NCBI RefSeq assembly: GCF_000243395.2
Contig: NZ_CM001484.1
Location: 2,227,847 to 2,291,846, forward strand
DNA from: Saccharomonospora glauca K62
Lineage (GTDB): Bacteria > Actinomycetota > Actinomycetes > Mycobacteriales > Pseudonocardiaceae
Direction of reading: 5' to 3'
DNA length: 64,000 bases
Shown here: positions 1,513-58,164 of the stretch, piece after piece
Position numbering within the stretch: the stretch's first letter is position 1
Layout: the number at the start of each line of letters is the position of its first letter
Made by a program: the position numbers and the translations under genes
Notes under the pieces: generated by a model
What the model was told of the DNA's origin: nothing
The model's database searches: none
Seen by the model: only the letters and a program-made list of their open reading frames with translations

Positions 1513-4527
<3,015 letters not shown>

Positions 4528-10197: not shown

Positions 10198-11421
10198 TCA
10201 CACGCGAGCCTTCTTTCCGGCTTTCCCGCGCGCGGGCCGCCCCGTGGGCCAGCGCCTCACACTGATCACCATCGCGGCCACCCCACAGACCCCGATACCG
10301 ATCGCGGCCAGGAGCGTGCCCGTGACCCCGAACCGGTCGAGCACCAGACCACCGATCGCGGAACCACAGGCCATCCCGACGTAGAGACCACTGGTGTTGA
10401 GGGCCATCGCCTCGGTGCCGACCGGACCGGCGAGCGCGAGGGTGCGGGCGTTCATCGGCGCGTTGTTGCTCCACGCCGCCACACCCCAGACGGCCAGCGA
10501 CCCCATGATCACGACCGGCGGAACGGGCGCCACCGTGGCATGAAGCCCGACCCACACCAGCACGACGACCAACGCGGTGCCGAAGGTGGCGATCATGCCG
10601 CGATCCGGCCCCCACCCGTCGGCGATGTGACCACCCACCGCCGCGCCGAGGGCGCCGGCGACCCCGATCGTCGCGATGAACACGGTCAACAGCTCCGGAC
10701 GCGCCGTCAGGGCCTCGCTGATGGGAGCGACGTAGATGTAGGGCATCAGCCCGGCACACGCCCCGATCGTGGTGGTCACGGCACACGCCAGGATGGCCGG
10801 GGACCGCAACGCCCGCAGCCGGTCACCGATCCCGGCCTCGGACACCGGTTCGAACCTCGGCAGCGTGGCCGCCACCGTGACCAGCGCGCCCACGGTGAAC
10901 ACCCCAACGGCGACGAACGTCGCATGCCATCCCCACCGCGTGCTCAACCAGGTGCCGATGGGCACCCCCACCGCCAGCGACACCGTCAGCCCCGCCGCGA
11001 CCACGCCGATCGCCCGCCCCGCATACCCCGGTTCGGCGCGCTGACCCGCGATCGCGAACGCCGCGGGGCTCAACGTGCCGGCGACGACCGCGGTCACGAT
11101 CCGCAGCACCAGCAGGATCTCGAAGGACGTGGCGAGCGCGGTCGCGAAGTTCAACGCGGCGAAGAGCGTCAGGCCGAGGCCGAGGAGTCGACGCGGCGGG
11201 ACGCGGCTGGTCAGGACGGCCATCACGGGCGCCGAGAAGGCGTAGGCCAGGGAGAACACCGTCACCAGTTGTCCGGTGGTGCCCTCGCTGACGGCCAGAT
11301 CTCGGCTGATCGCGGGAAGGGCGCCGGCGACGACGAAGTCGTCGGTCCCGATGGCGAAGGTGACCATCAGCAGCGAGAACAGCCACGCACGCCGTGGTCG
11401 GGATCGAGTGCTGGATTCCAT
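10198..11421 (-). CDS. MFS drug/metabolite exporter (12-TM type)
   Basis: The 407-residue protein is hydrophobic throughout, with about 12 membrane segments. It has the antiporter-type N-terminal signature (FAIGTDDFVVAGALP), the loop-2 basic motif (SRVPPRRLLGLG) and Gly/Pro-rich segment 5 (VAAGLTVSLAVGVPIG). It belongs to the DHA1-like major facilitator exporters. The start is placed at the ATG at 11421; the frame continues upstream but would enter the end of the MerR gene. That MerR regulator lies 35 bp upstream on the same strand and probably controls its own operon in response to the exported compound. The substrate is unknown. Confidence 0.9.
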   Translation of the reverse strand: MESSTRSRPRRAWLFSLLMVTFAIGTDDFVVAGALPAISRDLAVSEGTTGQLVTVFSLAYAFSAPVMAVLTSRVPPRRLLGLGLTLFAALNFATALATSFEILLVLRIVTAVVAGTLSPAAFAIAGQRAEPGYAGRAIGVVAAGLTVSLAVGVPIGTWLSTRWGWHATFVAVGVFTVGALVTVAATLPRFEPVSEAGIGDRLRALRSPAILACAVTTTIGACAGLMPYIYVAPISEALTARPELLTVFIATIGVAGALGAAVGGHIADGWGPDRGMIATFGTALVVVLVWVGLHATVAPVPPVVIMGSLAVWGVAAWSNNAPMNARTLALAGPVGTEAMALNTSGLYVGMACGSAIGGLVLDRFGVTGTLLAAIGIGVCGVAAMVISVRRWPTGRPARGKAGKKARV

Positions 11422-11456
11422 GCCCCGATCGTCGAACCCTGACGCCAGCGTCAAGG

Positions 11457-11834
11457 TCAAGCGTCGGCCCGGACCTTACGGGTGTTTCCGCGCAGCTCGG
11501 TCACCCGGCGCGCGAGTTGTTCCCGGACCGCCGTCAGGCGGCGTACGCGCTCGTCCACCGCGGCGAGTCGTTGTTCGTACAGTTCGACGGCGGCCGCGCA
11601 GGGTTCGGAGCCGTTCAGGTCGTCCTCCAGACAGTGTCCGACCACGGCGATGCTGGCCCCGTCCAGCCCGGAGTCGAGCAGCATGCGGATGTTGCGGACG
11701 CGCGAGACGGCGGATTCGTCGAAGATGCGGTAGCCGTTCGGTCCCCGACGGGACGTCAGCAGTCCCAGGGACTCGTAGTACCGGATCGCGCGCACGGTCA
11801 CCCCGCACCGGCGCGCCAGTTCCCCGATCCTCAT
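11457..11834 (-). CDS. MerR-family transcriptional regulator
   Basis: The 125-residue protein begins with the MerR winged helix-turn-helix (MRIGELARRCGVTVRAIRYY; GLLTSRRGPNGYRIFDE) and continues into the long dimerisation coiled coil. Two cysteines (HCLEDD and EPCAAA) lie in the effector-binding region, but their spacing is not that of the mercury, copper or zinc sensors, so a drug-type or unknown signal is likelier. It is upstream of and same-strand with the MFS exporter; the pair probably forms a self-regulated efflux operon. The frame stays open upstream, but the ATG at 11834 starts the domain exactly. Confidence 0.92.
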   Translation of the reverse strand: MRIGELARRCGVTVRAIRYYESLGLLTSRRGPNGYRIFDESAVSRVRNIRMLLDSGLDGASIAVVGHCLEDDLNGSEPCAAAVELYEQRLAAVDERVRRLTAVREQLARRVTELRGNTRKVRADA

Positions 11835-11936
11835 GTGGGTCACCTTAGAAGGGTCGGGGTGGATCGATGGGGTCGTTTCGTGGCGTTCTCGTGCTCGGGG
11901 AGTCCCCTCTCGCTCGCCGGAACCGAAACGTGAATT

Positions 11937-11966
11937 TATGTCGTGTATTGTGCATTCCACGACATA
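11937..11966. promoter_or_regulatory. 9-bp inverted repeat upstream of the recombinase gene
   Basis: TATGTCGTG (11937-11945) and CACGACATA (11958-11966) form a perfect inverted repeat with a 12-bp spacer. It lies in a short AT-richer stretch 15 bp before the recombinase start codon. It could be an operator of the recombinase promoter or, less likely, a recombination core site. The symmetry is seen; the role is inference. Confidence 0.4.
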
Positions 11967-11980
11967 GTTATGATCTTGAC

Positions 11981-13045
11981 GTGGCGAAACCGGAACGGCT
12001 GTCCGACGTCACGGTCCGTGACGCGACATTGGAGTACCTGGAGATCCTCGAACGGCGCGTGATCCGCTCGCAACTCAGCGCCGCGACGTTGACGTCCTAT
12101 CGTCGCGACCTCACCGAGTTCACCACTCTCCTGGGCCCGGACACCCAGCTGGACTCCATCGAGGCCGACGACCTGGAGATCGCGCTGACCAAGCTGGCCA
12201 AGGCACCCGACCGGCGTTACCGCGTGGGATTGAAGATCGCCGAGGACGGCTCCACTCCCCCGGGCCGGGGCCCGTACTCGCTGGCGCGGTGGTTCGCGGC
12301 CGTGCGGGGGTTGTTCCGGTGGGCCGCCGACAAGGGCTACGTGCGGGTGGACCCGACGTTGAAGGTCACCCCTCCCCGTACGCCGAACCGGGTGGCGGGG
12401 TCGCGGGTCGGGCTCCGGCTCGACGAGGCGCTGGTGTTGCGCGGGGCGCCCGTGGTACGGGCGTCCGAGCGGTTGCGAGCCGACCAGCGGTTGAGTCTGC
12501 GGGACGCGGCCATTCTGCGGTTGCTGGTCGAGTCGGGGCCTCGGGTGTCGGAGCTGTGCGGTGCGAATCGAAGTGACATTCGGTTGCACGAGGAGACGCG
12601 CACGCCGGTGCTGCACGTACGGGGCAAGGGACGCAAGGACCGGGATCTGCCGCTGTCGAAACCCACGGTGGAGTTGATCGAGCGGTATCTGGCCGAGGAG
12701 CGCCCCGCTCCCCCGCGGCCGAAGTCGGCGCACGATCCGGCGGAGCGTCGTCGTATCGCCGACGCGGAGGGGGCGTTGTTCGTGTCGATTCGGGGCTGGC
12801 GGCTGTCGCCGAGGGACGTGCAGCGCATGGTGCAGCGGTACTCGCGGGAGTTTCTGGGGCGGCGGGCGACGCCGCACTCGTTGCGGCACACGGCGTTGAC
12901 GATCCTGGCGCGCGCGGGGGTGGACATCGCGACGGTGGCGCAGATCGCCGGGCATGCGAGTTTGTCGACGACGTCGGTGTACATGGACGACTCGATGAGC
13001 GCGGCGGCGGAGGCGATCGAGGAGTCTCCCCTGGCTCAGCCGTGA
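11981..13045 (+). CDS. tyrosine recombinase / phage-type integrase (XerC/D-like)
   Basis: The protein is 354 residues from the GTG at 11981. An N-terminal SAM-like core-binding domain (about 8-115) precedes the catalytic domain. All catalytic residues are visible: Arg in SGPRVSELCG, Lys in RGKGRKDRDLPL, His-x-x-Arg in PHSLRHTALT, His in GHASLSTT and the nucleophilic Tyr in SVYMDD. It is therefore likely active. No excisionase, attachment repeats or mobile-element genes were found around it, so it may be a resident chromosomal recombinase rather than part of an integrated element. Earlier in-frame codons would run through the inverted repeat, so the GTG is preferred. Confidence 0.88.
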   Translation: MAKPERLSDVTVRDATLEYLEILERRVIRSQLSAATLTSYRRDLTEFTTLLGPDTQLDSIEADDLEIALTKLAKAPDRRYRVGLKIAEDGSTPPGRGPYSLARWFAAVRGLFRWAADKGYVRVDPTLKVTPPRTPNRVAGSRVGLRLDEALVLRGAPVVRASERLRADQRLSLRDAAILRLLVESGPRVSELCGANRSDIRLHEETRTPVLHVRGKGRKDRDLPLSKPTVELIERYLAEERPAPPRPKSAHDPAERRRIADAEGALFVSIRGWRLSPRDVQRMVQRYSREFLGRRATPHSLRHTALTILARAGVDIATVAQIAGHASLSTTSVYMDDSMSAAAEAIEESPLAQP

Positions 13046-13105
13046 CCGCGAGTGGCTTTCGGATTGTGGCGCGCCGTTCGGGTGGTGGGGGCGTACGCTG
13101 CGGCG

Positions 13106-13871
13106 GTGGCCGACGGACACGTGGTGGAGCGGTTGCGTGCGGCGGGGTGTGTGTTCGCCGAGGAGGAGGCGCGGCTGTTGGTGGCCGCGGCGGCGGACGA
13201 GGCGGAGTTGGAGCGGTTGGTGCGGCGGCGGGTCGTGGGGGTGCCGCTGGAGCATCTGCTGGGGTGGGTGGAGTTCGGTGGGGTGCGGGTGGTGGTCGAG
13301 CCCGGGGTGTTCGTGCCGAGGAGGCGGACGGAGTTTCTCGCGGCCTCGGCGGTGGCGGTGGCGCGGGCGGGGTCGGTGGTGGTCGACCTGTGTTGTGGTG
13401 CGGGGGCGATCGCGGCGGTGGTGGCGGCGTCGGTGCCGGGGGTGAGGGTGTTCGCCGCGGATGTGGATCCGGTGGCGGTGCGGTGTGCGCGACGGACGTT
13501 GGCGGGGACCGGTGCGGTGGTGTGTGAGGGGGATTTCGACGCGGCGTTGCCGGTGTGTCTGGTGGGGCGGGTGGATGTGTTGGTGGCGAACGTGCCGTAT
13601 GTGCCGAGTGCGGAGATCGAGTTGATGCCGCCCGAGGCGCGGGTGTACGAGCCTCGGGCGGCGTTGGACGGTGGGGTGGACGGGTTGGCGGTCGTGCGGC
13701 GGTTGCTCGGGGTGGCGTCTCGGTGGTTGGGGGTGCGGGGGGCGGGTGCTGTTCGAGGTCGGGGCGGCGCAGGTGGGGGCCGCAGTGTCGGAGGTGGAGG
13801 CGGCGGGGTTGGTCGCGGAGGTGCGTTCGTGTGAGGAGCGGGAGGCGACGGTGGTCGTGGGTTCCCGGTGA
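13106..13871 (+). pseudogene. HemK-like protein glutamine methyltransferase, frameshifted near the 3' end
   Basis: The first part encodes an N-terminal helical region and a SAM-dependent methyltransferase core: VDLCCGAGAIAAVV for SAM binding, and NVPYVP in place of the catalytic NPPY, near residue 170. The reading frame is lost in the G-rich run at about 13732-13742. One frame over, the expected family C-terminus resumes (GRVLFEVGAAQV) and ends at 13871. Removing a single G would restore one continuous protein of about 254 residues. Either the gene is a recent pseudogene or the base is a sequencing error in a homopolymer-like run. The GTG at 13106 is chosen by comparison with the usual N-terminus. 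The protein would act on glutamine residues of release-factor-like targets, by family. Confidence 0.75.
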
Positions 13872-17941: not shown

Positions 17942-20521
17942 GTGCCAGTGCCCGCCCCCAACTTGACTCGTGAACAAGCTCGGCAGCGTGCTGATTTGCT
18001 GGAGGTGTCGTCGTATGACATTGAGCTGGATTTGACGGATGGCCGTGGTGGGCCGGGTGAGGGGACGTTTTCGTCTCGGACGACGATCCGGTTCGCTGCG
18101 CGGCGGCCGGGGGAGTCGAGTTGGGTGGATGTGGTGGCCGCGGGGGTGCGAAAGGCCACGCTCAACGGCCGGCCCCTGGATGTGTCCGACTATGTCGAGG
18201 ACAAGGGTATTGCGTTGCCGGATCTGGCGGCGGAGAACGAGGTGGTGGTGCATGCCGACTGCCGGTACATGAACACCGGGGAGGGGTTGCATCGGTTCGT
18301 CGATCCCGTCGACGGCGGCGTGTACCTCTACAGCCAGTTTGAGACGGCGGATGCCAAGCGGATGTTCGCCTGTTTCGACCAGCCCGACCTCAAGGCCACC
18401 TACCGGCTGGTGGTGACCGCTCCCCGGGATTGGACGGTGGTCTCCAACGCCCCGGTCGCGTCGCGGGAGGACACCCCGCAAGGGGCGGTGCGCACCACCT
18501 TCGCCACCTCGCAGCGGATGTCGACGTATCTGGTGGCGTTGATCGCCGGGCCGTATGCCGAGTGGCGGGACACCTACGTCGATGAGCACGGCACGATCCC
18601 GCTGGGCATCTACTGTCGGGCCTCGCTGGCGGAGTTCATGGACGCCGACCGGCTGTTTACCGAGACCAAGCAGGGGTTTGCGTTCTACCACGACAAATTC
18701 GGGGTGCCGTATCCGTTCACCAAATACGACCAGTTGTTCGTGCCGGAGTTCAACGCCGGGGCGATGGAAAACGCCGGGGCGGTCACCTTCTTGGAAGACT
18801 ACGTCTTCCGCAGCCGGGTGACCCGCTACTCCTACGAACGGCGCGCCGAGACCCTGCTGCACGAGATGGCGCACATGTGGTTCGGGGACCTGGTCACCAT
18901 GCGCTGGTGGGACGATCTGTGGCTCAACGAGTCCTTCGCCACCTTCGCCAGTGTGCTGGCCCAGGCCGAGGCCACCGAATACACCGGGGCCTGGACCAGC
19001 TTCGCCAACATCGAAAAGTCCTGGGCCTACCGGCAGGACCAGCTGCCCTCCACCCACCCCATCGCCGCCGACATCGTGGATCTGCACGCGGTGGAGGTCA
19101 ACTTCGACGGCATCACCTACGCCAAAGGCGCCAGCGTGCTCAAGCAACTGGTCGCCTACGTTGGCCTGGACAACTTCCTGGCCGGGCTGCGGGTCTACTT
19201 CACCAAACACGCCTGGGGCAACGCCACCCTGGCCGACCTGCTGGCCGCTCTGGAGCAGGCCTCCGGACGCGATCTGTCGGGGTGGAGCGCGCAATGGCTG
19301 GAAACCACCGGGTTGAACACCCTGCGCCCCCGCTTCGAACTCGACGAAAACGGCCGGTATCGCTCCTTTGCCATCGACCAGGGCGGAGCCAAACCCGGCG
19401 CGGGTGAGCTGCGCACCCACCGGGTCGCGGTGGGGGTCTACAACGACAACGGCCACGGCAAACTCGTGCGCACCCACCGCGTCGAACTCGACATCACCGG
19501 CGCCACCACCGACGTCCCCGACCTGGTCGGCACCGACGCCGGGGACCTGGTCCTGGTCAACGACGACGACCTCACCTACTGCGCCCTACGCCTGGACCCG
19601 CACTCCCTGACCACCCTGACCACCCGCATCGCCGACATCACCGACCCCCTCCCCCGCACCCTGTGCTGGTCCGCCGCCTGGGAAATGACCCGCAACGCCG
19701 AATTCAAAGCACGGGACTACCTGACCCTCGTGGCCTCGGGACTTCCTCACGAAGACGAGCCGGGCGCCGTGGAAGCCCTCCTCGACCAGGCACACACCAC
19801 GTTGTGTTCCTACGCCGACCCCGCCTGGGCCGCCGAACACGGCTGGCCGACCTTCACGAGGCTGTTGCTGAAGTTGGCGAAGGAAGCACAACCGGGCTCG
19901 GATCGGCAACTCACCTTCGTCAACGCCCTCACCAAGGCTGTGCTGGACCAGTCCCTGCTCGACGTGCTGGCGGGATGGTTCGACGGTTCGGCGCCCCTGA
20001 CCGGGCTCGTGGTCGACACCGATTTGCGGTGGCGGCTGCTGCACGCCCTCGTCGCCCACGGCAAAGCCGGTGACGCCGAGATCGACGCCGAGCTGCGGCG
20101 CGACGACACCGCCACCGGCCGCCGCCACGCCGAACGAGCCCGGGCTCTGCGCCCGACGCCGGAGTCCAAGGCCACCGCCTGGGAACGCGCGATCCACGAC
20201 GATGACCTCCCCAACGCCACCAGCGACGCCATCATCGCGGGCTTTTCCCACCCCGCGCAGACCGCGTTGCTCACCGACTACGCCGACCGCTATCTCGCGG
20301 AGATCGACGCGCTGTGGGCGCGACGCTCCAGCGAACGCGCGTTGCCTGCGGTGGCGCAGTTGTTCCCGTCGTGGCGGATCGACCGGGACACCCTGGCGGC
20401 CGTGGACGCGTGGCTGGCCGCGGAGCACCCGGACGCCTTGCGTCGGCTTCTCGTGGAGTTACGGGCGGAGCGGCTGGTGCGCCCCTTGGCGGCACGCGAG
20501 TTCGACCGGAGCGCCGCGTGA
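17942..20521 (+). CDS. pepN: aminopeptidase N (M1 zinc metallopeptidase)
   Basis: The 859-residue protein is a full-length M1 aminopeptidase. It has the substrate-binding GAMEN motif (about 273-277) and the zinc motif HEMAH (about 307-311) followed 18 residues later by the third ligand in LWLNESFA. A C-terminal helical domain (ERAP1-like) fills the last 300 residues. It removes N-terminal residues from peptides in the cytoplasm. A GTG at 17942 or 17948 is the start. The last codon is only 27 bp from the acyl-CoA dehydrogenase gene on the same strand, so read-through into the biosynthetic genes is possible. It is most likely housekeeping. Confidence 0.95.
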   Translation: MPVPAPNLTREQARQRADLLEVSSYDIELDLTDGRGGPGEGTFSSRTTIRFAARRPGESSWVDVVAAGVRKATLNGRPLDVSDYVEDKGIALPDLAAENEVVVHADCRYMNTGEGLHRFVDPVDGGVYLYSQFETADAKRMFACFDQPDLKATYRLVVTAPRDWTVVSNAPVASREDTPQGAVRTTFATSQRMSTYLVALIAGPYAEWRDTYVDEHGTIPLGIYCRASLAEFMDADRLFTETKQGFAFYHDKFGVPYPFTKYDQLFVPEFNAGAMENAGAVTFLEDYVFRSRVTRYSYERRAETLLHEMAHMWFGDLVTMRWWDDLWLNESFATFASVLAQAEATEYTGAWTSFANIEKSWAYRQDQLPSTHPIAADIVDLHAVEVNFDGITYAKGASVLKQLVAYVGLDNFLAGLRVYFTKHAWGNATLADLLAALEQASGRDLSGWSAQWLETTGLNTLRPRFELDENGRYRSFAIDQGGAKPGAGELRTHRVAVGVYNDNGHGKLVRTHRVELDITGATTDVPDLVGTDAGDLVLVNDDDLTYCALRLDPHSLTTLTTRIADITDPLPRTLCWSAAWEMTRNAEFKARDYLTLVASGLPHEDEPGAVEALLDQAHTTLCSYADPAWAAEHGWPTFTRLLLKLAKEAQPGSDRQLTFVNALTKAVLDQSLLDVLAGWFDGSAPLTGLVVDTDLRWRLLHALVAHGKAGDAEIDAELRRDDTATGRRHAERARALRPTPESKATAWERAIHDDDLPNATSDAIIAGFSHPAQTALLTDYADRYLAEIDALWARRSSERALPAVAQLFPSWRIDRDTLAAVDAWLAAEHPDALRRLLVELRAERLVRPLAAREFDRSAA

Positions 20522-20548: not shown

Positions 20549-21706
20549 GTGGATTTCAGCTTCACTGCTGAGCAAACACAGCTACGGCGGTCGATCATCG
20601 AGTTCGCCGAACGAGAGCTCGGTGACGCCGCCGAGAGCGATCGGGCGGCGCGGCTGAACCGGGACGCGTGGAAGAAGTGCGCGGAGTTCGGGATCACGGG
20701 CTGGCCGGTGCCGAAGGCCTACGGTGGTGCGGGCCTGGACCCGGTGACGATCGCCGTGGGCTTGGAGGCGCTCGGCTACGGGTGCCGGGACAACGGCCTG
20801 GTGTTCGCGCTGAACAATCACCTGTGGGCCTGCACGGTCTACCTCGTCGAGCACGGGACCGAGGAGCAGAAGGCCCGGTTTCTGCCCGGATTGGCGGACG
20901 GTTCGCTGATCGGTGCCCATGCGTTGACCGAGCCGGAGTCGGGTTCGGACGTGCTGGGGATGAAGACCACGGCCGAACGCCACGGCGACACCTACGTCTT
21001 GCGTGGCACCAAGACGTTCATCTCCAACGCCCCGGTGGCGGACGTGTTCTTGACGTTCGCGCGCACCGGAAGTGAGGACAGTCCCGCCGCGGGTGCGCTG
21101 TCGGCGTTCGTGGTGACCGCCGACCTGCCGGGGTTTCGCGTCAGCCGGAGCTGGGAAAAGGCCGGGCTCCGCTCGACGGAGATGGGTCAGGTGGAGTTCG
21201 ACGAATGCCGGGTGCCCGCGGCGAATCTGCTGGGTGCCGAGGGCAACGGGTTCAATTTGTTCACCAGCTCCATCGACTGGGAACGCAGTGTGTTGTTCGC
21301 CAGCCAGATCGGGGTGATGGAACGGGTGCTCGACGACTGTGTCGAGCACGTGCGTCGGCGGAGACAGTTCGGTAAGCCGCTGGGGGCCCAGCAAGCCGTG
21401 CGGCACCGCATCGCCGACATGAAGGTGCGGCTCGAACTCGCCCGGCTCGCGATGTACAAGGCGGCGTGGCGCAAGCGAGAAGGACATCTGGCTCCGCTGG
21501 ACGCGGCGATCGCGAAGCTCGCGATCAGCGAGAGCCACCTGCGTTCCATGCTCGACGCGGTACAGCTGCACGGTGCGCGCGGGTACCTGACGGAGTTCGG
21601 GGTGGAACGCGAACTGCGGGACGCGCTCGCGGGGACGATCTACGGGGGTACCTCGGAGATTCAGCGTGACATCGTCGCCGGTCTGCTCGGCGTGCCGAGT
21701 TCGTGA
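20549..21706 (+). CDS. acyl-CoA dehydrogenase-like enzyme of extender-unit pathway
   Basis: The 385-residue protein has the N-terminal helical, middle beta and C-terminal helical domains of the acyl-CoA dehydrogenase fold (AHALTEPESGSDV; FITFARTG-like region; RRQFGKPLGAQQAV; GGTSEIQRDI). The Glu that acts as base in the YEGT position of medium-chain enzymes is Gly here; Glu245 in SIDWERSVLF sits where isovaleryl-CoA dehydrogenases keep their base. It resembles the FkbI/ZmaI type that oxidises ACP-bound C3 units. It is the first of four tightly spaced genes (aaRS-like ligase, hydroxyacyl dehydrogenase, ACP). The GTG at 20549 is preceded by GAAGGAAAGGG. Its proposed job is oxidation of a seryl- or semialdehyde-ACP intermediate toward aminomalonyl-ACP. 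Confidence 0.9.
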   Translation: MDFSFTAEQTQLRRSIIEFAERELGDAAESDRAARLNRDAWKKCAEFGITGWPVPKAYGGAGLDPVTIAVGLEALGYGCRDNGLVFALNNHLWACTVYLVEHGTEEQKARFLPGLADGSLIGAHALTEPESGSDVLGMKTTAERHGDTYVLRGTKTFISNAPVADVFLTFARTGSEDSPAAGALSAFVVTADLPGFRVSRSWEKAGLRSTEMGQVEFDECRVPAANLLGAEGNGFNLFTSSIDWERSVLFASQIGVMERVLDDCVEHVRRRRQFGKPLGAQQAVRHRIADMKVRLELARLAMYKAAWRKREGHLAPLDAAIAKLAISESHLRSMLDAVQLHGARGYLTEFGVERELRDALAGTIYGGTSEIQRDIVAGLLGVPSS

Positions 21707-21733
21707 TGTCGACAGCGAGGAGACACGAACGTC

Positions 21734-22948
21734 ATGCCTGATTACCGGATTCCGCTGACCGAGCCGGTGGCCGCCGAGCAGGTGGGTGAACTGGCGCAGC
21801 GGATCTACTTCTTGTCGGAGTCGATCGTCGATTTCGCCCTCCCCGGTGTCGGGGACGTCACGGAGGTGGTGGTGACGACCGAGGGCGACGTCGACCCGGC
21901 CGTGCTCGCCGACAAGCTGAACCGGATGGTCGACGAGGAGGTGCGGCCGCAGCTGTCGGGTCCGCCCCGCGTGGTGTGGCGGTCACCGAACTCGGACGAG
22001 GCCCGGAACGTCGCCGACGAGTTGCTGGCCTCCGGTGAGCTGGTGCCCATGGGGCCGGGTCAATTCGCGCTCGGTCCGGTGGTGACGGCGTTGCTGGACT
22101 ACGTCGACCGGCGGCTATTGCGGGCGGTGACCGAGGAGTTCGGGGCCCGCGCCTACCGATATCCCACGTTGATCGAGACGGAGACCCTGCGCCGGTGCGG
22201 GTATTTCACGTCGTTTCCGCACTTTTTGATGCTGGTGACGCGGTTGCACGCCGATTCGGACAACTACCGCGAGTTCGTCACCGCCGCGCGAGCCGAGTCG
22301 GAGGGGCTTCCCCCGCTGCTGGACTACTGCGACGACACCTCGCTGTGCCTGCCACCGACGATGTGTTACCACACCTATCGGCAGTTCCAAGGACAGCGGT
22401 TGAGTGAGCCCGGCCTGGTGGTCACGGCCAGGGGGAAGTCGTTCCGGCACGAGTCCCGCTACTGGCGTTCTTTGGAGCGGTTGTGGGACTTCACCATCCG
22501 CGAGGTCGTGTTCCTCGGTGATCGCGATCGGGTGCTCGCGCAGCGGCAGCGGATGTTGGAGTTGACCACGGAGTTGGCGGTCGAGCTGGGGCTCGGCGGG
22601 CACTGCGAGGTGGGCAATGATCCGTTCTTCGGCAGTGTCGAGTCGCCGCAGCGGGCGTGGTCCCAGCGGTTGCTGGAACTGAAGTACGAGTTGCGGCTGC
22701 CCATCGGTGAGGGCCGGACCCTCGCGGCCGCGTCGTTCAACTTCCACGAGGACTTCTTCGGTTCGTCCTTCGACATCCGGCGGCCCGCCGGGGACGGCGA
22801 CGAAGACGCCACGGTCATCACGGCGTGCGCGGGCGTGGGCCTGGAGCGTTTTGCGTACGCGTTCCTGTGTCGGCACGGCGTCGACCCGGCTGCTTGGCCG
22901 GAGCCGGTGCGTCTGGCCGTGGCGGGTTCGCCCGCGGTCACCGGGTGA
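21734..22948 (+). CDS. class II aaRS-like amino acid:[carrier protein] ligase
   Basis: The 404-residue protein has a class II aminoacyl-tRNA synthetase catalytic core: motif 2 (FRHESRYWRSLERLWDF, about 239-255) and motif 3 (ACAGVGLERFAYAF, about 366-379). Cysteines in TMCYHTY and ITACAG and the Glu of motif 2 fit the zinc-binding set of atypical seryl-tRNA-synthetase homologues (Bll0957 type). These lack the tRNA-binding arm and charge a carrier-protein phosphopantetheine instead. The N-terminal 130 residues are a small extra domain. The gene lies between the dehydrogenase pair and next to a free ACP, its probable acceptor. Serine is the expected substrate if the pathway leads to aminomalonyl-ACP; glycine or alanine, used by known relatives, cannot be excluded. 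Confidence 0.85.
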   Translation: MPDYRIPLTEPVAAEQVGELAQRIYFLSESIVDFALPGVGDVTEVVVTTEGDVDPAVLADKLNRMVDEEVRPQLSGPPRVVWRSPNSDEARNVADELLASGELVPMGPGQFALGPVVTALLDYVDRRLLRAVTEEFGARAYRYPTLIETETLRRCGYFTSFPHFLMLVTRLHADSDNYREFVTAARAESEGLPPLLDYCDDTSLCLPPTMCYHTYRQFQGQRLSEPGLVVTARGKSFRHESRYWRSLERLWDFTIREVVFLGDRDRVLAQRQRMLELTTELAVELGLGGHCEVGNDPFFGSVESPQRAWSQRLLELKYELRLPIGEGRTLAAASFNFHEDFFGSSFDIRRPAGDGDEDATVITACAGVGLERFAYAFLCRHGVDPAAWPEPVRLAVAGSPAVTG

Positions 22949-22992
22949 ACACCGGCTACGAGTACACGCGAGAAACCGAGGGTGAGGCAGGG

Positions 22993-23856
22993 ATGATGCA
23001 GAACATCGGGGTGGTCGGCGCGGGCACCATGGGCACGGGGGTGGCGCACCTGTTCGCCGCGCGGGGCTACCCGGTCGTCATGGTGGACTCGTCGGAGGCG
23101 GCGTTGGCGCGCTCCCGCGAGCTGATCGAGCGGAACGTGACGCTCTATCCGTTGGTGGACGGTGAGCAACCTCGGCTGGACGCCCGCGAGGTGACGCGGC
23201 GGATTGTCTTCTCCACGAATTTGCGCGAGTTGAAAGACAGCGACTTCGTCGTGGAGAACGTGACCGAGAAGCGAGAGATCAAGGAGGCGCTGTACCCGCA
23301 GTTGGACTCCGTCTGTCCCCCGCACTGCGTGTTCGGGGTGAACACGTCGGCGATCTCGATCACTCGGCTCGCCGCGCGGACGGCGAGGGCGGATCGGGTG
23401 ATCGGTACGCACTTCATGAACCCGGCTCCGCTCAAGCCGTTGGTGGAGGTGATCCGCGGGACGCACACCTCCCCCGAGACCGTGGATCGCACCCGCGCGC
23501 TGTTGGATGGTGTGGGGCGGGACAGCATCGTGGTCAACGACGCGGCGGGGTTCGTGACGAACCGAGTGATGATGTTGACCGTCAACGAGGCGATGTTCCT
23601 GCTGCACGAGGGGGTCGCCGATTCAGCGGCCGACGTCGATCGGCTGTTCCGGGACTGTTTCGGTCACCGCATGGGCCCGTTGGAGACCGCCGATCTGATC
23701 GGGTTGGACACGGTGCTGCTGTCTTTGGAGGTGATCTACGACAGTCTGCGGGACAGCAAGTATCGGCCGTGTCCGTTGCTGGCGCGGATGGTCGACGCGG
23801 GGTGGCACGGGGTCAAAAGTGGCCGCGGTTTCTACGAGTACCCGGACGCCGTCTGA
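22993..23856 (+). CDS. 3-hydroxyacyl-CoA dehydrogenase-like (FkbK/ZmaG type)
   Basis: The 287-residue protein opens with the NAD-binding GAGTMGTG motif (residues 8-15) and carries the catalytic His140 in GTHFMNPAP and the Asn in FVTNRVMML, as in 3-hydroxybutyryl-CoA dehydrogenases. The C-terminal helical domain includes RMGPLETADLIGLD. In methoxymalonyl- and aminomalonyl-ACP pathways the homologous enzyme oxidises the primary alcohol of the ACP-bound C3 unit to the aldehyde. It is placed between the ligase and ACP genes with short gaps (44 and 22 bp). The start could be either of the two adjacent ATGs at 22993 and 22996. Confidence 0.9.
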   Translation: MMQNIGVVGAGTMGTGVAHLFAARGYPVVMVDSSEAALARSRELIERNVTLYPLVDGEQPRLDAREVTRRIVFSTNLRELKDSDFVVENVTEKREIKEALYPQLDSVCPPHCVFGVNTSAISITRLAARTARADRVIGTHFMNPAPLKPLVEVIRGTHTSPETVDRTRALLDGVGRDSIVVNDAAGFVTNRVMMLTVNEAMFLLHEGVADSAADVDRLFRDCFGHRMGPLETADLIGLDTVLLSLEVIYDSLRDSKYRPCPLLARMVDAGWHGVKSGRGFYEYPDAV

Positions 23857-23878
23857 CGAACGAGAAGGGTTGGGACAC

Positions 23879-24124
23879 ATGGAAGATCGGCTGCAGATCG
23901 TACGCGACTACATCCACGGGCACCTGGGCAACGTGACCGTGGCCGACGACGAGGACTTGTTCAAGGGCGGGTATTTGAACTCGCTGTTCGCCGTGCAGAT
24001 CGTGGTGTGGTTGGAGAAGCGGTTCGGCATCGCGGTGCGCGGCTCCGATCTCACGCTCGACAACTTCCGCTCCATCAAGGACATCGCGGCGTTCGTCGAC
24101 GACTACTTCACGCTCATCGGTTGA
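23879..24124 (+). CDS. free-standing acyl carrier protein
   Basis: The 81-residue protein is acidic and helical, with the phosphopantetheine-attachment Ser35 in GGYLNSLFAVQ. Length and motif match discrete ACPs that carry unusual PKS extender units (FkbJ/ZmaH-like). It ends the four-gene extender operon and is the likely partner of the aaRS-like ligase and both dehydrogenases. A strong palindromic terminator follows 12 bp after the stop. Confidence 0.92.
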   Translation: MEDRLQIVRDYIHGHLGNVTVADDEDLFKGGYLNSLFAVQIVVWLEKRFGIAVRGSDLTLDNFRSIKDIAAFVDDYFTLIG

Positions 24125-24193: not shown

Positions 24194-24559
24194 TCAGTTG
24201 CCGTGCTCGGTGTAGAGGTTGGCGGCGGACAGCTTGTCGATCTTGGCGTGGAGGTCGTCGAGGGCAGTCTTCAGTTCCGTCAGCTCGTTGAGGTGAGCGC
24301 GGTTGTCGCCCTTGCGTACCGGGGGCTTGATCGCGCCCCAGATGTCGTTCTCGGCGTATTCCACCTCCTTGAGCACCCGGTCGATGACGCCCTCGGTGCT
24401 TCGCACGATGCTGGACAGGTACAGGAAGATCGTGTTCTTGTCGCGTTCGACGAGGGTTCTGGTGCTGTCGAGGATGTCGTTGATGTAGTTCTTGATGAAG
24501 TTGCCCTCGTCGGGTGTCGTCGTGGTCTTGGTCTTGGCCTTCGGTTCGGTCTGCGCCAT
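24194..24559 (-). CDS. small helical protein of unknown function
   Basis: The 121-residue protein has a Lys/Thr-rich N-terminus followed by two long amphipathic stretches (about 20-70 and 85-118) that look helical or coiled-coil. There is no Cys, signal peptide or membrane segment and no family I recognise. A strong ribosome-binding site (GAGGAAAGGAAG) precedes the ATG, and it lies 42 bp downstream of the P450 gene, so it is the last gene of the five-gene operon. A structural or partner protein is possible. Confidence 0.75.
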   Translation of the reverse strand: MAQTEPKAKTKTTTTPDEGNFIKNYINDILDSTRTLVERDKNTIFLYLSSIVRSTEGVIDRVLKEVEYAENDIWGAIKPPVRKGDNRAHLNELTELKTALDDLHAKIDKLSAANLYTEHGN

Positions 24560-51400: not shown

Positions 51401-53569
51401 ACCACCGGCGATGTAGGTGCGCAACCCGTCGGGCAGCGTGCCCGCCCGCAGCAGCTCACCCACCACGGAGGGCACGGCGAAGAAGTAGCGGGCCCACCGC
51501 GCCGCCTCGGGTGGGAGCGTGGGCACGTGCAGGGCGTTGTCCACCAGGATGACCCGGCCGCCGAAGGCCAGGGGCACCCACAGGTCCAGCACCGAGGCGT
51601 CGAAGCAGACCGAGGAGGCCGCCACCGCACCCGACAGTTCGTCGTCGTCGAGCAGATGTCGGCCCCAGGCCAGCAGGTGACGCACGGCGTCGTGCGGGAT
51701 CACCGTGCCCTTGGGGCGACCGGTCGAGCCGCTGGTGTAGATGACGTAGGCCGTGTGCCGGCCGGAAATCGTCCGGTCGTCGGGGGCGTTCTCGACGTCG
51801 GTGGAGTCGGTGCCGTCCACGGTGAACACCGGACCGGTGAAGTCGGCGAACCACGTCGGGTCCCCGGCGATCAGGGCGGCGGCGGAGGAGTCGGCGAGCA
51901 CGAACGCCCGCCGCTCGGGTGGGTAGTCGGGTTCGATCGGCACGTAAGCGCCCCCGGCGCGCAGCACCGCGAGCATCGCGATCACCAGATCGGGTTCGCG
52001 TGGCAGGCAGACCCCGACCCGGACGTCCGGACCGACCCCCGCCGCCCGCAACCGAGCGGCCAGACGAGCGGATTCGCGCTCCAGCTCGCGGTAGGTGACG
52101 CTGCGCGTCGGATGCCAGACCGCGACCGCGTCCGGCTTCTCCGCCGCCGCCCGGCACACCAGCTCCGGGAGCGTGGCGTCGGGCACCTCGACCTCCGGCC
52201 AGCCGTGTCGGCCGAGTTCGAGCAGATCCGCGCGCTCGGCGTCGTCGATCAGTGGGAGGGCGGACACCCGCGTCGCGGGAGCGGCCGTGACACCGGTGAG
52301 CAGGGTCGTGAAGCGGCGGCCGAGTCGGTGGACGGTCTCGGCGTCGAACAGGGCGGTCGCGTACTCGAACGAGCACCGGAGCCCGTCGTCGGCCTCGGCC
52401 ACGTACAACGACAGGTCGAACTTCGCCGTGTTGGTGTTCTTTCCCTGGTACTCCAGGGAGAGGTCACCGACCCCCACCTCCGCGCTCGGGGGCCCCTGGA
52501 ACACGAGGATGTTCTGGAACAACGGGTCGTGGCTGGTGTCCCGCTCGGGCGCGATCTCCTCGACCATCGTCTCGAACGGCACGTCCTGGTGGGCCATCGC
52601 GTCCACGCAGGTCCGACGCACCGCGGCCAGCAGGTCGGTGAACGTGGGATCACCTGAGAGGTCGGTCCGCAGCGGCAGGGTGTTGACGAAGAAACCGATG
52701 AGGTCTTCAAGCTCGGGCCTGCCGCGGCCGGTGATCGGAGACCCGACGACCACGTCGTTCTGTCCGGACAACCGCGACAGCAGCACCGAGAAGGCGGCCA
52801 GCACGACCATGAACATCGTGCAGTTGTGGTCCCTGGCCAGTGCCCGCAGGCGATCGGTCACCTCGGCGGGCACCGTGAAGTCGTGCCATGCGCCCCGGTA
52901 GTCGCGGCGTGCCGGACGCGGCCGGTCCAGCGGCAGCTCCGACAGCCTCGGCACGTCCCGGAGCTGGGAGCGCCAGTAGTCGAGCTGCCGGGTGAAGTCG
53001 GCCGTGTCGGGTAGCGCGCGTTGCCACACCGCGAAGTCGGGATACTGCACGGCGAGCTCGGGCAGGTTGGGTCGCTCGCCTCGGGTGAAGGCCGCGTAGC
53101 ACTCGCCCAGTTCCCGGAAGAAGATGTCCTGCGACCAAGCGTCGCAGACGATGTGGTGCATCGTGACCAGCAGGTGGTGGTCGCGCTCGCCGAGGCGGAT
53201 CAGGTGACACCGCAGCAGTGGTGGCGCAGCGAGGTCGAACGGGCGGGCCACGAACTCGGCCTCCAACTCCGCCAGCGCGCCCTCGGGGTCCGCGTGCTCC
53301 TGCAGGTCCGTGACCGGCATCGGAACCTCGACCCGCCCGTGGATGAGCTGCACCGGCTCCCCGTCGTGGACGGAGAACCCGGTGCGCAGCGCCTCGTGCC
53401 GGTCGACCACCGCGGCCACGGCTCGCCGCAGTGCCGAGACGTCCAGCGCGCCGCGCAACCGCAACGCCATCGGGATGACGTAGAACGGGTTGTCCTGGTC
53501 GAGCTGCTGCACCAGCCACAGCCGTCGCTGCGCGAAGGAGGTGGGAAACCGGTGGATGTCGTCGCTCAT
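45452..53569 (-). CDS. hybrid NRPS-PKS: C-A-PCP-KS-AT(degenerate)-KR-ACP-TE
   Basis: The 2705-residue enzyme has C (HHIVCDAWS), A (Asp657 in FDASVLDLW; pocket D-A-L-F-I-G-V-V-V, no confident amino acid), PCP (Ser near 1000), KS (about 1070-1495; Cys1242 in TACSTS, His1377 in EAHGTGT, His in KSNFGH), an AT remnant, KR (GGLGRLG near 2105), ACP (Ser2398) and TE (Ser2527 in GGWSLGG; His in GGHETML). In the AT remnant the GHSxGE motif reads ASGAGE at 1681-1686, so the acyl-carrying Ser is Gly, and the domain is short. The KR keeps Ser and Tyr but has Ala where the Asn is usual (AYAAAARY). The module needs an extender from another AT. The ATG at 53569 overlaps the PKS stop. The TE makes this the probable release point. 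Confidence 0.93.
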
Positions 53570-56500
53570 GAGGTCATCGCTTTCGTCCGCTCGGCCGATC
53601 CGGAATCCTGGCGGTAACCACCCCGGTCGACACGGGTGATCGACGGTGTGGTCGGCGCGTTCTCCAACTCCGCGACGGCGGAGGCCAGGCCCGCCACCGT
53701 CGGTTCGGTCAACAAGGTGTGGAGGGGCACCTGCACCCGCAGCTCGCGCAGCACACGGGCGATCACCCTGGTGCCGAGCAGCGAGTGCCCGCCCAACTCG
53801 AAAAAGTTGTCGTGCACGCCGACCCGGTCGATACCGAGCAGGTCCTGCCAGATCTCGGCGAGTCGGCGTTCGGTGTCGTTGCGGGGCGCGACGTAGGTGG
53901 TCTGCAACTCGGGTCTGGCGTGGGCCGCGCTGGAACGCGGCGCGGGTTGCGAGGTCTCGCGGGTACCGGACCACTGGTCGAAGCGGGCACGCAGATCGCC
54001 CGTCGAGTTCACCAACTGCGCGGGCGGGTCCCCCGAGAGCACCCGCTCCAGCACTTCCCTCGCGTCGTTCTCGTCGATGAGGTATTCGCGAAGCGTCGTC
54101 GCGGTCTCGGGAGCGGCTCGGTCGTCGACGGTCCAGCCCTCCCACGCCAATGCCGTCCAGGGCGTGCCGCCCTCAGCCGAGCGAGCCGCGGCGAACAGTT
54201 CGGTGTAGAGGTTCGCGGCGGCATAGGCGGGAAAGCCGATGCCCCCGAGCACGGATGCGATCGACGAGCACAGCAGCACGAAGTCGAGCTCCCGCCCGGC
54301 GAACACGTCGGCCAGGACACGCACGCCGTCGGCCTTCGCGGCGAGATGTGGCCGCGCGCGCTCCGGGGTGGCCTCGGCCAGCGGCATCACACCGTCCGCG
54401 GTCACCACACCCGCCACATGGAAGACGCCGTCGAACGGTCCCAGCTCGTTTTCCAGCCGCGCCACCGCCGCGGCGAACCGTTCGGGGTCCGACACGTCGG
54501 CGGAAGCCGCCGCCACCGTGGCACCCGCGGCTTCGAGCCGACGGATCGTGGTGATCTCGGCGGCGACCGGGTCGTCGGGTTTCGCGCGGCGTAGGTAGTC
54601 GTCCCAGTCGGCCCGGTCCGGGACCACCGAACGGCGGATGACCCCGATACGGGCCTTCCGGGTGGCCAGCAGGTCGCCGATCACGGCACCGATGCGGCCG
54701 AGACCCCCCGAGATCAGGTAGCACCCGCCGTCCCGCAAGCGCGTCGCGCCGGTCCGGTCCAGCCGGGCGGGAACGAAGCCCCGGACCCACCGGGTGTCAC
54801 CGCGGTAGGCCACGCAGTCGTCGGTGCCGTACCGCAGTTCCGTCACCAACCGGGTCAGCAGCCGCTGCTCATGCCGGGGCGAGGTGGCCGGTGTGATGTC
54901 GACGAACCGGCAGCGGGCCTGCGGCATCTCCTGATCGATCACCCGGCACAACGCGGCCAGCATGCCGCGTTCGGGGAACACCTCGGACTCGCCCGCCACC
55001 GGGAGGCCGGACACCGACACGACCCCCACCTCGACGTCGTCGACGAGGCCGCAGTCGCGCCAGGCGCGCATGAGCAGCATGAGCCCGTACAACGCGGTGA
55101 AATCGCGTTCCGGGCCGTCGGCTCCGAAGACCACACGGGCGGGAACCGATCCGGACTCCGACACCGTACGCAGTACCTTCGTCCAGTCGGACACCTCGTG
55201 CGGTGACACCGTGAACCGGTCCCCGCCGAGGTCGGCGAACGACGCGTCCCAGCTCACCCGTATCATGCGGGCCGCGGAGTGGGCGACGAGCCGTTCCACC
55301 ACCGACCCCGTCGCTCCCACGACCAACCACGTCTCGTCCGGGTCGTCGTCGGTGGGAGCCGTGGGAGGCAGGCTCCGGGTCCAGTCCGGTAGGTAGAACC
55401 ACTCCGACGGATCGGAGCGACGGGAGGTGTCGGGCGGCGCCTCGGCCGGGGTGGTCGTGGTGGGAGCGGCGAGCCAGAAGCTGTCGCGCTCGAACGGGTA
55501 GCCGGGCAGCCCCGTGCGACGCCAGTCCGTCTCCCGGTACCGCACCTCCCAGTTGACGTCGACACCGGCGAGCCAGACCCGCGACAGCGCCTCCAGCAGG
55601 GTCACCTCGTCGTCCTCGGTGTCGCGTGCCGACCGCGTGGAGGCCACCACGAGCCCGTCGTCCGCGCGGTCCGGATGTTGCGCCAGCAGGCTGCCCAGCG
55701 CACGACCGGGACCGAGCTCGATCACGACCGGAGAGGTCAGTTGCCACACGGCGGCCGCCTGGTCGGCGAACCGCACCGTGGCCACGCTGTGCCGCGCCCA
55801 GTACTCCGGGTCGGTCGCCTCCTCCGCCGTGATCCAGTCCCCGGTGACGTTGGACAGGTACGGGATTCGAGGAGCGTGCAGGGCAACGCCGTCGAGGTCC
55901 GCGCGCAGCTTCTCCCCGAGGGGCCGCATCATCCACGAGTGGAACGCGTGCTCCGCAGGAACCCGGCGGCTGGCGATTCCCTCGTCCCGCAGCCGGGCCG
56001 CCAGCGCGTCGACGTCCTCGGCCGGACCGGCGACCACGCACAGCGACTGAGTGTCTACAGCGGACAGCGAGATCCGGTCACCGAGCCACGGCGTCAACTG
56101 CTCCTCGGAGCTCATCACCGCGAGCATCGACCCGTTCGGCAGCCCTTCGATGTGGCGGGCGCGGCGGGCCACCAGCCAGGTCGCGTCCACCAGCGAGAGC
56201 ACCCCCGCCACCGCAGCGGCCACGTACTCGCCCACGCTGTAGCCGAGCATGGCATCGGGGCGGACTCCGTGGTGCTGCCACAACTGGGCCAACGCGTACT
56301 GCACGGCGAACAACAGAGGCTGAGCCACGACGGTGTCGTCGAGCGGGCCCGGTCCGCGTTCCCGCACGAGCCGCGCAAAGGGGTCGGCGGGTTGCTCCTC
56401 GGCCGCCTCCGCCTCGCTGTCGAACAACCGCTCGCGGAGGTCGAAACCCAGGTGGCGGGCGAACAACGCGCAGCAACGGTCGAACTCGTCGCGGAAGACC

Positions 56501-58164
56501 GGCTCGCTGCGGTACAGCCCGGAACACCATCCCACGTACTGGTCGCCGACTCCTGAGAACAGGAAGACCACCGAGCGGCTTCCGGCCGGACCGGCCGAGC
56601 TGTACACCTTCGGAGAGCGATCGGCGAGGGCGTCGGCGGCCTCGGCGGTGTCGTGCACCACCACCGCGCGTCGGTACTGGTGGGTGCGCCGGCCCAGCGC
56701 AAGCGTGCCGCTCACGTCCTGGAGGGCGACCTCGGGATGTCCGGCCAGGTGCTCGGCGAGCTGGTCGGTGGCCCGGTCCAGCGCGGCCGGGGTGCGGGCC
56801 GACAGCAGGATCGGTCGAGGGCCCGGCGCGAGTGTCCGCGGCCGGGGTTCGGGAGCCTGCTCGACAACGATGTGCGCGTTGGTGCCGCCGATGCCGAAGG
56901 AGCTCATCCCGGCCCGGCGGGGCACCCCGGCCACGGGCCAGTCGCTGAGGGTGGTGTTGACGTAGAAGGGGGACGACTCGAAGTCGATATTCGGGTTCGG
57001 CGTGCGGAAGTGCAGTGTCGGCGGCACCTTGCCGTATTTGACCATCAGGACCGACTTGATGAAGCTGGCCACTCCCGCGGCCGAGTCGAGGTGCCCGACG
57101 TTCGACTTGAGGGACCCGATCGCGCATCGGCGTTCCGGGTCCGCGCCGAGCACGCGGAACGCGTCGGTGAGCGAGGAGATCTCGATGGGGTCGCCCAACG
57201 GCGTGGCCGCGCCGTGTGTCTCGACGTGGCCGATGGTGTTGACGTCGACTCCCGAGGCCAGCACCGCGTCGGTGATCACCTGGGTCTGCCCACGGGTTCC
57301 GGGCGCGGTGTAGCCGACCTTGGCCGAGCCGTCGTTGTTCATCGCCGAACCGCGTACGACGGCATGGATCAGGTCGCCGTCCGCCAGGGCATCCTCCAGG
57401 CGACGCAGGACCACCACCCCGACGCCGCTGCCCGGAACGGTGCCCTTGGCGTCGGCGTCGAACGACCGGCAGTGGCCGTCCGGGGAGAGGACGCCGCCCT
57501 CCTCGTACAGGTAGCCCCGAACCTCCGGCAGGATCAGCGACACGCCACCTGCCAACGCGAGGTCCGACTCCCCGGTGAGCAGTCCCTGGCACGCCAGGTG
57601 GATCGCCACCATCGACGTCGAACACGCGCACTGCACGGTCACCGCGGGGCCCCGCAGATCGAGCTTGTACGCCGCCCTGGTGGCCAGGTAGTCCTTGTCG
57701 ACGGACAGGATCATCTGCATCTGGCTGATGTCGGCCAGCGCCCGCTCGTTCGGGTAGACGTTGTTCCACATGTACGAGCTGAGCCCGACACCGGCGTAGA
57801 TGCCCGCCACACCGTCGAAGCGGGAAAGGTCGTATCCCGCGTCGTCGAGGGCGTGGGCCGCGCATTCCAGGAACAGCCGCTGCTGCGGGTCGATCAACTC
57901 CGCCTCGCGCGGGCTGTATCCGAAGTAGGCCGCGTCGAACTTGTCGAGGTCGTTCAGCACCCCGCCGCGCGGGACGAATCCGGGATGGTCGAGCAGCCGC
58001 GGGTCCACCCCGGCCGCCAGCAACTCGTCCCGGTCGAACGTGGAGATCGACTCCACGCCCCCGGTGAGGTTGGCCCAGAACTGCTCGGGGTCGTCCGCTC
58101 CGGGGAATCGGCAGCTCATGCCGACGACCGCGATCGCGTCAATCGACTCACTCACGACACTCAC
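53566..58164 (-). CDS. type I PKS module: KS-AT-KR-ACP
   Basis: The 1532-residue protein has KS (about 8-430; Cys181 in CACSTS, His317, KSNVGH), AT (about 525-830; Ser643 in [13 protein letters not shown] at about 739-743), KR (GGLGRIG near 1155; Ser and Tyr/Asn in AYAAANLY) and ACP (Ser1461 in [10 protein letters not shown]). The motif after the KS His reads HGAATP instead of HGTGT, although the His is kept. The HAFH AT motif is common in malonyl-selecting ATs, but aminomalonyl-ACP, made by the genes at 20.5-24 kb, is also possible. It overlaps the next gene by 4 bp and lies 31 bp behind the upstream NRPS. The GTG at 58164 or 58155 may start it. Confidence 0.93.

Follow-up and report, generated by a model that had tools for sequence, protein, structure and literature searches.

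Introduction

Cassettes for aminomalonyl-ACP and amino acid:[carrier protein] ligases are both already known. In the zwittermicin route, a HAD-family and an ACAD-family dehydrogenase act on an ACP-bound C3 acid (PMC6395733). Both ZmaA-AT and ZmaF, the acyltransferase (AT) for aminomalonyl-ACP, have the motif GYSxG (PMC4207774). According to a review, it remains unknown what biological role the known amino acid:[carrier protein] ligases have (PMC9437257). An aaRS-like loader in an aminomalonyl-ACP cassette is a variant of these systems, and its combination with aminomalonyl was not found in the full-text literature searched, outside which most subscription journals lie. The four genes described here probably supply polyketide synthesis with an extender unit linked to an ACP, most likely aminomalonyl-ACP, and a PKS module gene of the same region (gene B) is its proposed user.

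Operon structure and gene content

The window analysed comprises 64,000 nt of Saccharomonospora glauca K62 (NZ_CM001484.1, positions 2,227,847 to 2,291,846, forward strand). A tight operon on the plus strand (20549-24124) contains, in this order, genes for an ACAD, a class II aaRS-like ligase, a HAD and a free ACP, with intergenic gaps of 27, 44 and 22 bp. The Pfam and NCBIfam matches and the short gaps confirmed the four-gene cassette that had been proposed by a sequence-only reading of this DNA. The ACAD (20549..21706, +) was assigned to the acyl-CoA/ACP dehydrogenase family by Pfam PF00441/02770/02771. The second gene (21734..22948, +) was assigned as a class II aaRS-like amino acid:[carrier protein] ligase, a proposed seryl-ACP ligase, by its matches to NF005479 and to Bll0957 in the PDB. 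The HAD (22993..23856, +) carries the Pfam domains 3HCDH_N and 3HCDH (PF02737/PF00725) of the 3-hydroxyacyl-CoA dehydrogenase family, and the ACP (23879..24124, +; PF00550, 1.8e-7) has its serine in the motif GGYLNSL. Free ACP, HAD and ACAD thus stand in one operon, as in the zwittermicin-type aminomalonyl-ACP system; a stand-alone seryl adenylation enzyme, the zwittermicin-type loader, was not found in the operon, which has the aaRS-like ligase instead. A close ortholog set (74-84% identical) with the same neighbours is present in Amycolatopsis dendrobii (L044).

The upstream gene (17942..20521, +) encodes an M1 aminopeptidase N outside the extender pathway. It ends 27 bp before the ACAD gene and may share the operon. 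A paralog with 90% identity is encoded elsewhere in the genome, and an M1 gene occupies the same slot in A. dendrobii. The enzyme is a possible self-resistance copy.

The window plus 40 kb downstream was searched by tblastn with FkbH and the O-methyltransferase half of the methoxymalonyl cassette, and only carrier-protein matches were obtained. Within this range, the earlier statements that an O-methyltransferase and an FkbH-type loader are absent both hold. A methoxymalonyl-ACP route of the FkbGHIJK type was ruled out, as neither FkbH nor an FkbM-type O-methyltransferase was found in the window plus 40 kb.

Proposed pathway

With ATP, the ligase would activate an amino acid, most likely L-serine, in an active site of the class II aaRS type that depends on zinc; the acceptor would be the phosphopantetheine on the free ACP, not a tRNA. 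The HAD would oxidize the seryl CH2OH to the aldehyde with NAD, and the ACAD, with FAD, would convert the aldehyde, as hydrate or enol, to the carboxylate. The GYSVG AT of gene B would move aminomalonyl from the free ACP onto its own module, where decarboxylative condensation followed by KR reduction would build an alpha-amino, beta-hydroxy unit into the chain. What was established here is the gene content, the homologies, the conservation of catalytic residues, the loss of the tRNA arm in the ligase model, the co-occurrence of the genes, and the signature and clade of the AT. The order of the oxidations and the pairing of ACP and AT are inferred.

Acyl-CoA dehydrogenase

The best PDB match of the ACAD was the prolyl-ACP dehydrogenase AnaB (4irn, 1e-118). 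The catalytic glutamate lies at the AnaB/PltE position in 31/31 rows of the window type, and all 27 FkbI-type rows have glycine there. Judged from its sequence, the enzyme falls on the prolyl-carrier-protein dehydrogenase side of the family (AnaB/PigA/RedW) and is not of the FkbI type. It belongs to neither the PigA nor the RedW family as defined by NCBIfam, scoring 409.8 bits at cut-offs of 500 and 650. Its earlier assignment to the methoxymalonyl/aminomalonyl oxidation set did not hold on the methoxymalonyl side, the enzyme being AnaB/PigA-like with a different position of the catalytic glutamate. The chemistry of prolyl-carrier-protein dehydrogenases is C-C/C-N desaturation, which counts against an aldehyde oxidation.

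Comparative analysis of ligase loci

The comparison set consisted of 70 further loci with relatives of the ligase, from several phyla, and neighbours were recorded within about 6.5 kb. HAD genes were found at 49, ACP genes at 52 and ACAD genes at 53 of these loci, and all three together at 40. A HAD gene was located within 1.5 kb of the ligase relative in 39/70 cases as against 0/23 for distant amino acid:[carrier protein] ligases (Fisher 3e-7, with the relatedness of the loci ignored). HADs of about 52-67% identity stand beside related ligases. A chance adjacency of the ligase with ACAD, HAD and ACP was ruled out by the recurrence of this gene set at dozens of loci. No HAD was found near 21 of the 70 relatives, including a Paenibacillus/Brevibacillus group, which counts against the aminomalonyl reading. 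At L050, the genes that follow the ligase read as 2-oxoacid dehydrogenase genes. The Kitasatospora locus L069 carries the cassette together with FkbH, another ACP and a second FkbI-type ACAD; one HAD was detected there, and the whole resembles the twin extender set of zwittermicin (PMC6395733).

The dehydrogenases could also make a modified aminoacyl unit, such as an alpha,beta-dehydro or 3-oxo amino acid, as an NRPS building block or starter and not a PKS extender. This is improbable, though the closeness of the ACAD to AnaB, PigA and RedW, makers of pyrroline- or pyrrole-carboxyl units, points that way, as do several ligase relatives found at loci rich in NRPS genes, where the retrieved sequence contains no KS. 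Against it, many relatives adjoin a KS and a dedicated AT with the signature for ACP-linked extenders, about half of the ACAD-bearing relatives use an FkbI-type enzyme for apparently the same step, and the HAD would have no obvious role in a desaturation. The aaRS-derived branch in Actinomycetota, Bacillota, Chloroflexota and Acidobacteriota may well consist of seryl-ACP ligases for aminomalonyl-ACP, with two distinct ACAD lineages recruited separately for the last oxidation; this wider proposal is less probable than the extender assignment for the window.

Gene B and its acyltransferase

Gene B (53566..58164, -), the proposed user of the extender, has the Pfam architecture KS-AT-KR-ACP, and its ortholog in A. 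dendrobii is 76% identical. From its motif and clade, the AT domain (55543..56832, -; GYSVG) is a proposed aminomalonyl-ACP acyltransferase. It carries the signature for ACP-linked extenders and groups with cassette-linked ATs, in a clade of 17 GYSxG ATs with a tree support of 98/93. It is 46% identical to the cassette-adjoining AT in L031, and its PDB neighbours include ZmaA-AT (4qbu). A GYSxG AT is present in 13 loci with the window-type ACAD and also in L031, L035, L036, L038 and L043 (L035 and L036 overlap L052 and L070); in most of these loci it adjoins the cassette. At FkbI-type loci, the motif was found in none of the 30 ATs in which it could be read. A plasmid search with the AT of ZmaA yielded no zwittermicin locus among the matches listed.

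Several features count against the use of an ACP-linked extender by gene B. The AT keeps HAFH, which is usual in malonyl-CoA ATs, its RXR equivalent, ASR, is polar and not hydrophobic like the triplet that has been proposed for ATs dependent on ACP, and its RXR and YASH motifs differ from those of ZmaF. The pairing is further weakened by the location of the cassette and the PKS genes, which lie on opposite strands with about 30 kb between them.

Ligase family, structure and substrate

The ligase matched the NCBIfam profiles for amino acid--[ACP] ligases (NF005479, 1e-47) and type-2 SerRS (NF002120, 1e-32); its PDB matches were Bll0957 (5e-33) and archaeal SerRS. The Pfam family tRNA-synt_2b was hit with 24.5 bits, below the curated cut-off of 29.3. 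The branch that contains the ligase is a sister to the Gly/Ala:[carrier-protein] ligases and type-2 SerRS. With 162.5 bits at an equivalog cut-off of 357 bits it lies outside NF005479 itself and, by profile comparison, is placed as its sister clade. The class II core, the Arg/Glu of motif 2, the Arg of motif 3 and the C-E-C zinc site of the wider family are all present; C211, E257, R238, E240 and R372 are invariant in the alignment, and C365 is conserved in 40/41 rows. An adjacent carrier-protein gene is given by the ACP of the operon, and transfer of the amino acid to holo-ACP rather than tRNA is the predicted activity. Homology, the retained catalytic residues and the position in the operon support the sequence-only reading, which had placed an aaRS-like carrier-protein ligase where the usual loader would be.

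The structure prediction suggested with that reading was carried out. The AF2 model (pLDDT 90.7) aligned with the glycine:[carrier protein] ligase 4h2s (VIA Z 32.5, rmsd 2.1 over 292 residues) and with type-2 SerRS (VIA Z 31.9), at 20-25% identity in the structural alignment with the latter. In the model, an 80-residue alpha/beta N-terminal domain is present and the helical tRNA-binding arm is missing, which suggests that the arm has been lost. A possible descent of this domain from the N-terminal domain of SerRS was examined by fold comparison, in which no match reached significance (Foldseek E 0.035 and VIA Z 6.8 at best). The genome also encodes a normal bacterial SerRS, so the ligase should be dispensable for translation.

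Residues 234 and 367 are glycine in this clade and in SerRS and alanine in the glycine-specific Bll0957, which is only suggestive of serine; as 4/7 distant ligases also have glycine at 367, the seryl pocket signature is weak. The nearest characterised ligases load glycine or alanine, which counts against serine. Serine as substrate and aminomalonyl-ACP as product are the most likely choices from pathway logic, not from the sequence.

Somewhat less probable still than an NRPS unit is an ACP-linked extender from another acid, either glycerate (giving hydroxymalonyl-ACP) or another beta-hydroxy amino acid. The oxidation logic and AT class are shared with hydroxymalonyl/methoxymalonyl routes, and in comparator L115 FkbH takes the place of the ligase within the same layout; L069, however, has FkbH in addition to the cassette, and the zinc site of the ligase is invariant. 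In M. barkeri SerRS this site is reportedly where the substrate's amino group is bound, which makes a substrate lacking such a group unlikely. That the ligase is a resistance or regulatory SerRS paralog beside unrelated ACAD, HAD and ACP genes by chance is very improbable despite the type-2 SerRS match, as it is closer to carrier-protein ligases, its model shows the alpha/beta domain but lacks a tRNA arm, and the gene adjacency recurs across phyla; a function as tRNA synthetase was ruled out by model and gene context.

Comparison with known systems

Loading of serine for aminomalonyl-ACP would give one branch of carrier-protein ligases a concrete role: an amino acid would be loaded directly for polyketide extension, with no NRPS A domain involved. 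If true, this would be a defined biological role for the branch. The set of ligase, HAD, ACP and ACAD with a GYSxG AT would be a sequence marker for assembly lines that place a free amine in polyketide chains, and the ligase a small stand-alone loader that could be used to engineer nitrogen into polyketides.

The nearest relatives of the ACAD, the L-prolyl-ACP/PCP dehydrogenases AnaB, PltE and PigA/RedW, share the position of the catalytic glutamate and act on aminoacyl-carrier-protein substrates, but the window operon has no proline adenylation partner. Type-2 (methanogenic) SerRS shares the catalytic core, the zinc site and the glycines matching positions 234 and 367, and differs by its tRNA-binding helical arm. 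Bll0957 of Bradyrhizobium and the NF005479 ligases share the class II core, zinc ligands, motifs 2 and 3, an adjacent carrier protein and the lack of a tRNA arm, whereas the window ligase, at about 30% identity, has the extra alpha/beta N-terminal domain, a HAD partner and a PKS context. The FkbH-type methoxymalonyl/hydroxymalonyl-ACP cassette (L115, S. albidoflavus) likewise has HAD, ACP and ACAD side by side and a GYSxG AT; the window differs in lacking FkbH and the O-methyltransferase and in an ACAD of another clade with its catalytic glutamate elsewhere. The zwittermicin A aminomalonyl-ACP subcluster (zmaG-zmaJ, with the AT zmaF) shares the free ACP, the HAD-family and ACAD-family dehydrogenases, an amino acid loader and a GYSxG AT. 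Its loader is the adenylation enzyme ZmaJ, while here it is the aaRS-like ligase, and the counterpart of zmaF is a cis domain of gene B.

Cassette anatomy and ligase family

The four-gene cassette with an aaRS-like loader that the sequence-only reading had described was recovered by coordinates and by Pfam and NCBIfam matches. Genes of the acyl-CoA dehydrogenase family (ACAD; 20549-21706, +), the 3-hydroxyacyl-CoA dehydrogenase family (HAD; 22993-23856, +) and a free ACP (23879-24124, +) were clearly assigned with both databases, and the ligase (21734-22948, +) was assigned by NF005479, type-2 SerRS and PDB matches. The intergenic gaps in the order ACAD-ligase-HAD-ACP are 27, 44 and 22 bp. Beside the ACP gene, a 121-aa protein (24194-24559, -) gave no match in Pfam and NCBIfam searches; a 76% identical counterpart occupies the same place in Amycolatopsis dendrobii.

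The ligase scored under the Pfam tRNA-synt_2b cut-off and matched the NCBIfam amino acid--[ACP] ligase NF005479 (1e-47) and type-2 SerRS (1e-32). PDB matches were the Gly-specific Bradyrhizobium ligase Bll0957 (3mey, 5e-33) and archaeal SerRS. The S. glauca K62 genome encodes a separate bacterial SerRS (452.9 bits; cut-off 301.65), and the ligase is thus dispensable for translation. Among 41 sequences with 31-73% identity to the window ligase, C211, E257, R238, E240 and R372 were invariant and C365 was present in 40; these residues comprise the ligands of the zinc ion, an Arg and a Glu of motif 2, and the Arg of motif 3.

An AlphaFold model (pLDDT 90.7) contained no helical tRNA arm, bearing out the expected loss of this element. 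Residues 91-398 superpose on the glycine:[carrier protein] ligase with a VIA Z of 32.5 and an rmsd of 2.1 across 292 residues; for residues 70-404 and type-2 SerRS the values are VIA Z 31.9 and rmsd 2.4 across 315. At the N-terminus, the first 80 residues make up a small alpha/beta domain, for which structure comparison returned no significant fold match. The clade and two type-2 SerRS have Gly at both 234 and 367, where Bll0957 has Ala. This would fit a larger pocket, but weakly, since 4 of 7 other distant ligases also carry Gly at 367.

Co-occurrence and ACAD lineage

Ligase relatives were collected by a scan of genome contigs, resulting in 70 loci. Within about 6.5 kb of the ligase, HAD was found at 49, ACP at 52, ACAD at 53 and all three at 40 loci. 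At a 1.5 kb flank, HAD was present at 39/70 ligase loci versus 0/23 more distant aa:CP ligases (Fisher 3e-7, a value that ignores relatedness and serves as a guide only). Among the exceptions is a Paenibacillus/Brevibacillus group that has an FkbI-type ACAD, with HAD and ACP undetected. In one Paenibacillus locus (L050, 8800-14400) the genes after the ligase read, at DNA level, as 2-oxoacid dehydrogenase E1/E2, and a different use of the ligase is putatively assigned to such loci.

The window ACAD is nearest to AnaB, PigA and RedW. In the ACAD tree, window-type (with AnaB and PltE) and FkbI-type sequences form two separate groups. The catalytic Glu at the AnaB/PltE position is present in all 31 window-type rows, whereas all 27 FkbI-type rows have Gly there and an invariant Glu within an EGT/S motif, the other known ACAD position. 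One ligase clade therefore works with either lineage. The genes had been read as the oxidation set of methoxymalonyl routes; this holds for the kind of enzyme but not for the lineage, as the window ACAD falls on the AnaB/PltE side in both tree and Glu position.

Proposed route and acyltransferases

Alongside the observed anatomy, residues and co-occurrence, we infer a substrate, an order of steps and a product. The ligase would load serine onto the free ACP, HAD would oxidise seryl-ACP to an aldehyde, ACAD would convert the ACP-bound aldehyde to aminomalonyl-ACP, and the AT of gene B, a PKS module gene (53566-58164, -), would transfer the aminomalonyl group. Serine is preferred because glycine has no carbon for HAD and alanine no hydroxyl; threonine or glycerate would be less probable substrates.

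Gene B has the domain order KS-AT-KR-ACP. Its AT (55543-56832) carries GYSVG and lies inside the clade of cassette-linked ATs (support 98/93). For the ACYLTRANSFERASE link, an AT gene lies immediately after the ligase in the compared loci L031, L043, L045-L047, L051, L053, L055, L056 and L061. Near window-type cassettes, GYSxG ATs were found at L031, L038, L043 and a further 13 scanned loci whose ACAD is window-type; at FkbI-type loci, none of 30 ATs with a readable motif has it. GYSxG also takes the place of GHSxG in the hydroxymalonyl-ACP AT of ZmaA and in the aminomalonyl-ACP AT ZmaF (PMC4207774). As a caveat, the gene B AT carries HAFH and ASR instead of ZmaF-like motifs.

The other ATs of the window's cluster, in the numbering of locus L041, are a cis-AT with GHSIG (3457-4698) and a discrete AT with SHSLG (11877-13175); a type II thioesterase (11083-11823) lies near the latter. 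The neighbouring gene C (45452-54145, -) reads C-A-PCP-KS-AT remnant-KR-ACP-TE. Its AT remnant is inactive, as neither the active-site Ser (ASGAG) nor the His region is preserved, and the module is thus probably served by a trans-acting AT.

Neighbourhood and distribution

An M1 aminopeptidase N gene (17942-20521, +) ends 27 bp upstream of ACAD and has a 90% identical paralog in the same genome (G000:C1:1304056-1306623). A. dendrobii carries an M1 gene at the corresponding position, with about 71% identity both to that organism's other copy and to the window copy. The gene looks like a duplicated-target self-resistance gene, and the product may accordingly inhibit aminopeptidases.

Between 24602 and 33228 lie genes for a pair of P450s, a PLP decarboxylase, a ligase resembling glutamine synthetase, and a trio similar to HpaE/HpaD/HpaG, namely an aldehyde dehydrogenase, a LigB dioxygenase and an FAH hydrolase. 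Each has a counterpart in the A. dendrobii locus (L044, 76-83%), and the set may be a route, for tailoring or precursor supply, that starts from an aromatic amine. Of 12 genomes in the genus, 2 gave a strong ACAD match (E 1e-80 or better), and the second of these shows just 47% identity. This patchiness, together with the ortholog in A. dendrobii, another genus, makes horizontal transfer likely.

Comparison with known extender systems

All parts of the cassette are of familiar types; the papers searched contained no example of an aaRS-derived loader combined with this HAD/ACAD/ACP oxidation set, and a review describes the biological role of aa:CP ligases as unknown (PMC9437257). In line with the sequence-only reading, no match to an O-methyltransferase or FkbH turned up in the window plus 40 kb. 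In contrast, the methoxymalonyl-type locus of S. albidoflavus (L115) has an AT fused with an FkbM-family methyltransferase in one protein, followed in a row by HAD, ACP, ACAD and an FkbH-like protein. In Kitasatospora GAS204B (L069), genes for an FkbI-type ACAD, FkbH and an additional ACP come straight after an aaRS-like cassette, and one HAD was detected at the locus. This gene set matches the logic of zwittermicin, where a twin extender set shares its HAD (PMC6395733).
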